Positions 6,988-42,903 of a stretch of 64,000 nucleotides of DNA are shown piece by piece. The notes under the pieces were generated by a model. That model was not told the origin of the DNA. It saw nothing but the letters and a program-made list of their open reading frames with translations, and did not search any database. The position numbers and the translations under genes were made by a program. Numbering within the stretch: position 1 is the first letter of the stretch; every line of letters begins with the position of its first letter. Source of the stretch: an uncultured Prevotellaceae bacterium (lineage in GTDB: Bacteria; Bacteroidota; Bacteroidia; Bacteroidales; Bacteroidaceae); the NCBI GenBank assembly GCA_947305005.1, contig CAMZCM010000005.1, positions 62,001 through 126,000 of the forward strand, in the 5' to 3' direction.

Positions 6988-7221
6988 GCTTTTTGCTTCA
7001 TCTTTGCTGTAGCTCGCGTGCAAACATAATGGCGTGATAGGTATCCACAAGGATGAAGGGCAGTCATTTGAGTCTTTAGGATTGAGTGAAGAGATAATAC
7101 CTTTTAGGGGAAACTGCAGTACTCTCTAGGGCGTACTCGAGTACTTCATAGGGAGTACTGCAGTACGTCTTAGGGAGTACTGGTTCTATAACTAATAGGT
7201 AAAATTTACAAGCAATAAGCA
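6988..7221. other. Convergent intergenic space holding hairpin array 1
   Basis: Lies between the stops of the aldo/keto reductase and the YccF gene. I see no coding pattern and no classical GC-rich hairpin followed by a T-run. Its only structure is the GTACT repeat array at 7116-7181. Confidence 0.6.
7116..7181. repeat. Hairpin repeat array 1: three tandem 22-bp units
   Basis: Three consecutive units (7116-7137, 7138-7159, 7160-7181) each consist of a 2-base spacer plus a 20-base near-palindrome. An example is AGTACTTCATAGGGAGTACT, an 8-bp stem counting one T-G pair, with a 4-base loop. A degenerate partial unit (TTTTAGGGGAAACT) precedes it. The tail GGTTCTATAA is nearly shared with the second array at 23511. 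The array sits between convergent genes, so it may act as a terminator or boundary; this is inference. Confidence 0.9.
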
Positions 7222-22501: not shown

Positions 22502-22535
22502 GCCCTATGAAAAGTGAAAAGTGAAAGAATGAAAA
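22502..22535. repeat. GTGAAAA-type simple repeat between epimerase and PAP2 genes
   Basis: The junction is made of repeated GAAAAGTGAAA words. The GTG start codon of the PAP2 gene is the last GTG of this repeat; the ATG at 22529 is followed by a stop after five codons and is not usable. Confidence 0.7.
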
Positions 22536-23531
22536 GTGAAAAATAAGAGTTTCTCATTATTACCCATAGAGAAAGCGGGGGCGGTGTATTGCGCATTGAC
22601 CTGCGTGCTGATGGTCATTATGATGCCACAGTTGGTGAATCCTGTGGGTATGCTGGTAATGCGAGTAGAGTGGCTGGCGATGACGCTGGCTGTCATCGCT
22701 CTGTCTTGCTATTTGAAAGGTCCGTCGTTTCAAGGTCTTGCAGCCAAATACAAGGTGAATCCTTTCAATCTTTCTACTTTCCTTCGTGTCTTGGCGCAAA
22801 TGGCGTGGTTGCCGCAATGGTATCCGGACACGTATGAGTTCAATCGCAGCCTGCCAAACTTGGACCATTGTTTTGCAGCAGCTGAGCAATCGCTCTTCGG
22901 TTGTCAGCCCTCCCTTGAGTTCTGTCAGGCATTGCCTGAAACATTCTGGAGTGAGGCTTTCAATCTGGGTTACTTCAGCTACTTTCCCATGATTGCCGCC
23001 TTGACGATTTTCGTATTCTTCATGGACAGAAAGAAAGGCGATTTTGTCCGATTCCATCGCGTTTCTACGCTCATCATGACGGCATTCTTCCTCTATTACG
23101 TCATTTATATCTTCCTGCCTGTCGCAGGTCCCCAGTTCTACTTCCAAGCTGTAGGCATTGATGAGATTCTGCAAGGCCATTTCCCTGCCTTGGGCACCTA
23201 TTTCAGTGACCATACGGAAATGTTGCCGGCACCAGGCAATAACAACGGTCTTTTCAACACCCTTGTCCATATGTCGCAATCAGCAGGTGAACGTCCCACT
23301 GCTGCTTTCCCCAGCAGCCATATCGGCATCTCCACCATCCTGCTTCTGCTGGCCTATCGCTATGCTCCCCGTATTTTGCCATATTTGTTGCCTTTTTGGA
23401 CATTGTTGTGCTGTGCGACCGTTTATATCCAGGCACACTATCTCATTGATGCTATCGCAGGGCTCATCAGCGCTCCCCTGATGCTGTGGCTCAGTAGTAT
23501 GGTAGCTCGGAGAATACTCCCTAGAGGATAG
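22536..23531 (+). CDS. PAP2-superfamily membrane phosphatase or phosphotransferase
   Basis: 331 residues with about six membrane helices. The PAP2 phosphatase signature is visible: ERPTAAFPSSHIG (motif 2, PSSH) and AHYLIDAIAG (motif 3, HxxxD with catalytic His). Motif 1 (KxxxxxxRP) is not obvious, as in the inositol-phosphoceramide-synthase-like branch of the superfamily. This raises the possibility of a phospho-headgroup transferase rather than a simple lipid phosphatase. The start is a GTG inside a repeat. The final eight codons are encoded by the first, degenerate unit of hairpin array 2, which supplies the TAG stop. It is paired with an upstream SDR epimerase. Confidence 0.85.
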   Translation: MKNKSFSLLPIEKAGAVYCALTCVLMVIMMPQLVNPVGMLVMRVEWLAMTLAVIALSCYLKGPSFQGLAAKYKVNPFNLSTFLRVLAQMAWLPQWYPDTYEFNRSLPNLDHCFAAAEQSLFGCQPSLEFCQALPETFWSEAFNLGYFSYFPMIAALTIFVFFMDRKKGDFVRFHRVSTLIMTAFFLYYVIYIFLPVAGPQFYFQAVGIDEILQGHFPALGTYFSDHTEMLPAPGNNNGLFNTLVHMSQSAGERPTAAFPSSHIGISTILLLLAYRYAPRILPYLLPFWTLLCCATVYIQAHYLIDAIAGLISAPLMLWLSSMVARRILPRG

Positions 23532-23598
23532 TCCAGTACTCCTTCGGGAGTACTAGAGTACTTCTTAAGGAGTACTGCAGTACTCTAGTAGGAGTACT
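23511..23598. repeat. Hairpin repeat array 2: four tandem 22-bp units
   Basis: Units at 23511-23532 (degenerate, coding), 23533-23554, 23555-23576 and 23577-23598. The second contains AGTACTCCTTCGGGAGTACT, a perfect 8-bp stem closed by a C(TTCG)G tetraloop. The others keep outer AGTACT arms and vary inside with T-G pairs. The tail GGCTCTAGAA resembles that of array 1. The array lies at the 3' end of a rightward gene facing a leftward one, as array 1 does. Confidence 0.92.
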
Positions 23599-23649
23599 GG
23601 CTCTAGAATTAGGGGGACTTTGAAATCTTCTTAGGCAAGTAGAAAAATG

Positions 23650-23680
23650 AAAAGAGGCAACCATTCGGCTGCCTCTTTTT
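23650..23680 (+). terminator. Rho-independent terminator after the PAP2 gene
   Basis: AAAAGAGGCA and TGCCTCTTTT form a perfect 10-bp stem around a 10-base loop, ending in a T-run. The A-run on the left flank would also serve the opposite strand, so it is probably bidirectional. It lies 50 bases beyond hairpin array 2. Confidence 0.85.
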
Positions 23681-36040: not shown

Positions 36041-36145
36041 GAGTGAAAAGTGAAAAATGAAAGGGTGAAAAAATAGTTTTTTCCTTTGTAACTGAGAAGT
36101 AAAAATGCGGGTGCAAGTGAAATGATTATTTTTCACTTTTCACTC
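36041..36145. repeat. 18-bp perfect inverted repeat in the rbfA-permease gap
   Basis: GAGTGAAAAGTGAAAAAT (36041-36058) recurs as its exact reverse complement at 36128-36145. The arms border almost the whole intergenic space and consist of the GTGAAAA repeat words seen elsewhere. Confidence 0.85.
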
Positions 36146-36147
36146 TT

Positions 36148-36486
36148 TTATTTTTCACTTAAAAGCTTATCAATGTTCTCCGCGTAGTCAAGACTGTCGT
36201 CAACGAAGAACTTGAGTTCAGGGATAATGCGTAGCTGATGACGGGTGCGTTGACCGAGTTCGTAGCGGATTTGTTTAACATTTGCATTGATGTTGTCACA
36301 GATCTCCTGTGCACGTTCGCTGGGGAAGATGCTAAGATAGCCTCTGCAAACACTCATGTCAGGACTGATGCGGCACACGCTTACACTAACGAGTACGCCG
36401 TGTGTGGCCTGAGTCTGACGCTGGAAGATGTCGCTCAATTCTTTCTGAATGAGACGAGCGATTTTATTTTGACGGGTTGTTTCCAT
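36148..36486 (-). CDS. rbfA: Ribosome-binding factor A
   Basis: 112 residues, normal for RbfA. It is a cold-shock-linked factor that binds the 30S subunit and assists 16S rRNA 5'-end maturation. Family features are the opening TRQNKIARLIQKELSDIFQR, the middle VSVCRISPDMSVCRGYLSIF, and the KH-like region with IRYELGQRTRHQLRIIPELK and FFVDDSLDYAENID. Its start lies 23 bases inside the sufE gene, so the two are translated from the same message. Its 3' end reaches the GTGAAAA inverted repeat. Confidence 0.93.
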   Translation of the reverse strand: METTRQNKIARLIQKELSDIFQRQTQATHGVLVSVSVCRISPDMSVCRGYLSIFPSERAQEICDNINANVKQIRYELGQRTRHQLRIIPELKFFVDDSLDYAENIDKLLSEK

Positions 36487-42751: not shown

Positions 42752-42903
42752 GATAATTTACGATTTGACCATTTACAATTTACAATTTATTTAAAAATAT
42801 GATTCATTTTAAGTTTTTTCCCGCTGTAGAATCAAATAAATCATAAATCAACAGAGAATCGTAAATAAATTGTAAATTGTAAATGGTCAAATCGTAAATT
42901 ATC
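42752..42903. repeat. Perfect 42-bp inverted repeat in a divergent promoter
   Basis: The arm 42752-42793 (starting GATAATTTACGATTTGACC) recurs as its exact reverse complement at 42862-42903, with 68 bases between. Each arm ends 2 bases from the -7 element of the gene it faces. Inside each arm the word TTTACAA is repeated. Confidence 0.95.

Follow-up and report, generated by a model that had tools for sequence, protein, structure and literature searches.

The gene for a PAP2 superfamily protein in the window (the whole stretch of DNA analysed, 64,000 nucleotides from an uncultured Prevotellaceae bacterium) ends inside a tandem array of 22-bp units, which raises the question of what this array is and how it came to supply the stop codon of the gene. 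The preliminary description counted four units after PAP2, placed the last codons and the TAG in the first of them and recognized a separate terminator farther on, and all of this was recovered (Table 1): the reading frame closes with ..ARRILPRG*, the TAG lies at 23529-23531 inside unit 1, and the terminator stands approximately 50 nt beyond the array end. Units 2-4 match the pattern AGTACT-N8-AGTACT exactly, comprising two AGTACT boxes around an 8-nt core, and unit 1 is degenerate. Among congeners whose PAP2 orthologues are readable to the stop (one genome per species, the nearest orthologue being 67% identical over the gene), the proteins have other C-terminal ends and the array is absent, consistent with the proposal that this C-terminus is lineage-specific. 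In addition, imperfect 7-bp tandem repeat runs (TGAAAAG, AATTTAC) occur in the window at 22508-22542, 36042-36071, 36130-36160, 42755-42789 and 42866-42900.

Table 1. Positions of the array units, their ends and the neighbouring features in the window.
Feature	Position	Strand	Basis and remarks
Array 1, left-end unit AATACCTTTTAGGGGAAACTGC	7096..7117	+	sequence, stacking of copies
Array 1, three units	7118..7183	+	flanked by aldo/keto reductase and YccF genes, which converge
Gene of the PAP2 superfamily (331 aa), convergent with the gene that follows	22536..23531	+	ORF; Pfam PAP2_3, E 7e-17
Array 2, unit 1, degenerate, AATACTCCCTAGAGGATAGTCC	23513..23534	+	left-end unit of the element; codes the last PAP2 residues and TAG
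Array 2, unit 2, AGTACTCCTTCGGGAGTACTAG = AGTACT CCTTCGGG AGTACT AG	23535..23556	+	sequence, exact pattern, folding
Array 2, unit 3, AGTACT TCTTAAGG AGTACT GC	23557..23578	+	sequence, exact pattern, folding
Array 2, unit 4, AGTACT CTAGTAGG AGTACT GG	23579..23600	+	sequence, exact pattern
Array 2, right end CTCTAGAATTAGGGGG	23601..23616	+	complement CCCCTAATTCTAGAG agrees at 14/15 with CCCCTAATCCTAGAG, at the left of another copy
Terminator-like inverted repeat, ordinary intrinsic type, bidirectional-looking, outside the array	23650..23679	.	sequence
Convergent downstream ORF, 150 aa	23800..24252	-	no Pfam match

Further arrays had been anticipated in this genome, and about ten AGTACT-N8-AGTACT-N2 arrays with a period of 22 were found when mismatches were allowed; without mismatches, the unit pattern gave 20 forward hits in the 2.45-Mb, 40-contig assembly and none in the backward-read control. 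Once oriented and stacked, the better-preserved copies share one order, which runs from the end CCCCTAATYCTAGAG through a left-end unit (AGTACCTCTTAGGGGAAACTCC) and then two or three units to GGCTC, and the cores of their internal units are position-specific between copies. The window copy closes on the right with CTCTAGAATTAGGGG, an inverted form of that left end (14 of 15 positions), and several other copies have, beside their right end, a unit whose core is identical or nearly identical to that of unit 4. Eight of the nine classifiable arrays of this genome adjoin a gene 3' end. Each copy is a discrete element that carries end units of its own, most often at a gene 3' end. Some copies (L046, L047 and L051 on the left, L051 and L052 on the right) have approximately 100 bp more of hairpin-forming flank (GGCGTTTCGCTCAGAGC..) in common, which looks like the copying of larger composite elements.

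These comparisons bear directly on unit 1, which agrees with the left-end unit of the other copies at 15 of 22 positions. The stop codon of PAP2 therefore falls within the normal end unit of such an element, and the growth of the array up to or into the gene, as suggested in the preliminary description, is neither required nor supported. From the stacked sequences, a discrete element landing on the PAP2 end looks like a better explanation of unit 1 than unit-by-unit growth; the landing itself is something we infer, the orthologues compared being at most 67% identical over the gene.

Arrays of this type are widespread but patchy in the order Bacteroidales. Matches with at most one mismatch were found in 51 of 399 genomes of the window's GTDB family, with a backward control near zero, and a related element is present in 27 of 139 genomes of the window genus, where the elements are frequently bounded by GCC and GGC and have core sequences particular to each species. 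A scan of species genomes of Bacteria and Archaea returned, among the matches listed, only Bacteroidales, the genera including Parabacteroides, Phocaeicola, Bacteroides, Mediterranea, Paraprevotella and Prevotella together with uncultured relatives; many of the compared genomes are metagenome-assembled. An extreme expansion was seen in genome G069 (3.5 Mb), which holds approximately 270 matches per strand to a three-box pattern, with GCGG-rich cores and without a Y1 transposase. The AGTACT pattern occurred in one of 2.9 million viral contigs and a plasmid search with the window stretch gave no match, on which grounds a phage or plasmid origin was rejected. Rumen and deer MAGs (loci L091, L094, L126, L147, L171, L183 and L189) carry arrays flanked by copies of GGCGAAAGTTCATAAATCGGTTGGC, which at several of these loci stand on both sides of the array in inverted orientation.

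Among 142 non-redundant arrays, the number of units ranges from two to six with a mode of four. Most of them were found by patterns demanding exact or near-exact boxes, so box frequencies in this set are uninformative by themselves. The cores tend towards TCCNNGGA and show weak self-complementarity (on average 1.56 of 4 pairs, compared with 1.35 in column shuffles), and the 2-nt linker is variable, being mostly CC, GG, CG or GC. With gene context assigned by a simple ORF-calling script, 48 arrays lie between convergent, 57 between tandem and 14 between divergent genes, compared with 18, 98 and 49 for the remaining intergenic spaces at those loci. Ordinary terminators were present at 53 of 192 gene ends with arrays, compared with 33 of 146; the arrays neither replace nor lack them, and a terminator role was rejected.

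Orthologous sites were located in sister species using the array-free flanks of ten arrays. Array-bearing comparisons found in this way numbered ten, from seven reference arrays, and belong to the Phocaeicola plebeius / Bacteroides mediterraneensis group, a clade other than that of the window species; they overlap partly in loci and are not all independent. Identity was 475/480 (99.0%) in boxes, 268/320 (83.8%) in cores, 51/60 in linkers and 2201/2501 (88%) in flanks, with p 7e-17 for boxes versus cores. The reference arrays had been picked for good boxes; even with the target branch alone considered, at half of the core divergence, approximately 39 box changes would be expected, and five were observed. 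No indel was present in 860 bp of arrays, compared with 64 in 4383 bp of flanks (p 2e-5). The same order was obtained for 17 pattern-found pairs (.989 for boxes,.879 for cores,.845 for linkers and.921 for flanks), and variant boxes (AGTACC) were also mostly retained between species. Hence, between species, conservation in place holds for the boxes and for the 22-bp phase, while the cores drift at approximately the flank rate. Since fixed letters and spacing are protected and the rest drifts, something in the cell probably reads the array.

This in-place conservation also disfavours an ordinary minisatellite grown by slippage into PAP2, a reading close to that of the preliminary description and now highly improbable. 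Slippage would account for the few whole-unit gains or losses at orthologous sites (five units versus four, four versus three), which indicate that unit number can move while the 22-bp phase is kept, and for five near-identical units in Prevotella disiens; however, cores differ within one array while boxes are kept, unit order is position-specific between copies, and a second box family described below has a tightly held unit number. The P. disiens case (L168:6573-6680) represents a recent unit duplication beside an ordinary terminator.

A non-autonomous mobile element of MITE or REPIN type, with no host function and with the boxes as transposase recognition sites, would fit the discrete and inverted ends, the lineage-specific amplification, the longer flanks common to some copies of the window genome and the patchy distribution, which persists even inside genera, resembles a mobile element more than a host need and counts against a cellular role. 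Array presence also varies at orthologous sites: at one locus (L162), four units in one species correspond to a single-unit remnant in another and to none in two, and at a second (L105), an array in one species is matched by an ordinary terminator in three sister species. However, dead copies should decay evenly, whereas here boxes and phase are conserved in place. Visual inspection of the ends and of the variable sites showed no target-site duplication, and no known mobilizing gene emerged from a search for Y1 alone: Y1_Tnp (RAYT, PF01797) is absent in the array-richest genomes G069, G387, G363, G237 and G224, and gave a weak 24.6-bit match in the window genome (G000). Taken together, we consider a purely mobile element rather unlikely, though still the strongest of the rivals.

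The preliminary description placed weight on RNA hairpins, and arrays acting in 3' untranslated regions, by stabilizing mRNA or aiding two-sided termination, would agree with the strong predicted folds and with the 3'-end and convergent bias. Folded singly, units 2, 3 and 4 form 8-bp hairpins (-11.4, -7.6 and -8.8 kcal/mol; unit 1, -1.5), and unit 2 indeed presents the described C(UUCG)G loop. In the whole array, one long hairpin (-44.0 kcal/mol) is favoured over individual hairpins of the units (-30.6), and the minimum-energy structure therefore does not contain the UUCG loop; array 1 likewise folds as one long hairpin (-47 kcal/mol). The suggested folding of the transcript end gave a structure 5.3 sd below shuffles, more than expected by chance. 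UUCG cores number 16 of 649 units and the complementary CGAA 10 of 649, a weak and not strand-specific excess, and selection for UUCG was rejected.

On the transcribed strand of tandem-context arrays, box changes are of wobble type in 25 cases versus mismatch type in 34, and core G.U pairs number 109 versus 101 A.C. Differences between units at paired positions, pointed out at the start, are real but mostly uncompensated (within the unit in 20 of 340 box changes, at the mirror position in 26 of 340). Lacking a G.U bias and with compensation rare, RNA stems are not an obvious target of selection, and recognition of double-stranded DNA is preferred. Mirror-compensated boxes do reach 18 of 102 in three-unit arrays, a set that includes copies from one lineage, so hairpin formation may also matter; this signal is strong against a cross-genome null (z 7) but gone against a within-genome null, and stem selection by compensation was rejected. 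Compared with other arrays of the same genome, no array-specific complementarity or covariation was detected. Moreover, conservation extends to the box letters and not only to their pairing, a loop would not need a fixed core length, ordinary terminators are not lacking at array gene ends, and Rfam gave nothing for the window and tRNAs alone for ten loci. An RNA function is accordingly judged unlikely, slightly more so than the mobile element.

On this evidence, these sequences are a Bacteroidales family of discrete intergenic elements, usually of three to five palindromic 22-bp units in phase, whose AGTACT boxes are nearly invariant. We give about an even chance to the reading that they serve as protein-bound DNA arrays at gene ends. 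The arrays would be double-stranded DNA platforms on which a sequence-specific dimeric chromosomal protein may bind side by side, along one helix face, 22 bp being approximately two turns. The effect of such platforms at gene ends could be bidirectional, whether as a roadblock to transcription, as an insulator or as an anchor of the nucleoid. Copies would spread within lineages as elements, and the window copy may have landed on the end of PAP2, where it now supplies the stop codon.

Comparison with known systems points to BrickBuilt, a MITE of Porphyromonas gingivalis with approximately 19 intergenic elements of 23-nt tandem units (PMC4596501), as the nearest published relative in design. It has a leader and a tail of up to ~300 nt, small inverted ends and a strain-variable unit number (PMC4596501), and it shares with the AGTACT arrays the order Bacteroidales and the form of intergenic tandem arrays with defined ends. 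However, its unit AGAYCATARTATCCTCTCRTRTG, reported in P. gingivalis, is 23 nt long and non-palindromic, whereas the AGTACT unit is 22 bp. As regards the terminal inverted repeats of a MITE, CCCCTAATYCTAGAG ends were seen in the window genome and GCC..GGC ends in congeners, though not in every copy. REP, BIME and REPIN sequences are likewise short extragenic palindromes, clustered in many intergenic copies, but the foot of a REP is GTAG or CGTC, and REPs of the GTAG type accompany a RAYT gene (PMC3733652, PMC3116915); the AGTACT palindrome has neither foot, and neither the 22-bp phase nor the AGTACT box is characteristic of REPs. With Y1_Tnp missing from the array-richest genomes, a RAYT/REP origin was rejected. 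PINSR, a 188-bp intergenic repeat of the Prevotella intermedia group with ~180 copies and without terminal inverted repeats (PMC4755523), was detected by PCR in P. disiens (PMC4755523), which also carries AGTACT arrays (L123, L168); it differs in being described as a 188-bp unit, and its consensus is given in a figure of PMC4755523. CRISPR spacers are unique and at least 20 nt long, whereas the variable cores here are 8 nt and change by point changes in place. A search of part of the literature returned no description of AGTACT arrays, and the family is apparently undescribed so far.

If the DNA-platform reading is true, dominant gut bacteria make use, at their gene ends, of tens to hundreds of phased DNA sites to which, as far as we found, no protein has been assigned. 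Such sites are readily recognized from sequence, their carriers include the culturable Phocaeicola plebeius and Bacteroides mediterraneensis, and in-place conservation makes host function versus selfish spread of extragenic palindromes, an old question, a testable one.

A second box type extends the picture. At locus L152, an AGTACT array in one species is replaced at the same place in three others by an ACGTTT-N10-AAACGT array, also with a period of 22. Of 80 genomes tested, exactly four hold this type in quantity, each of them AGTACT-rich, and its arrays (L337-L339, L345-L363, L382-L421) are those of the Phocaeicola plebeius / Bacteroides mediterraneensis group. Four units are present in 47 of 50 arrays, boxes are better kept than cores (836/959 versus 559/763), and the context is convergent in 9, tandem in 20 and divergent in 17, without a strong convergent bias. 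Tentatively, and with less confidence than for the DNA-platform reading, we suggest a class of Bacteroidales cis-elements set by architecture rather than sequence, in which approximately four palindromic boxes in exact 22-bp phase, of box types interchangeable at a site (AGTACT, ACGTTT/AAACGT and perhaps GAACATATGTTC), would be read by a chromosomal protein whose specificity differs among lineages. A general excess of 22-bp periodic palindromes beyond the known boxes was rejected, with one extra case only. The possible third box type, GAACATATGTTC with N10 and a period of 22, lies near an AGTACT array at L079:1284-1400.
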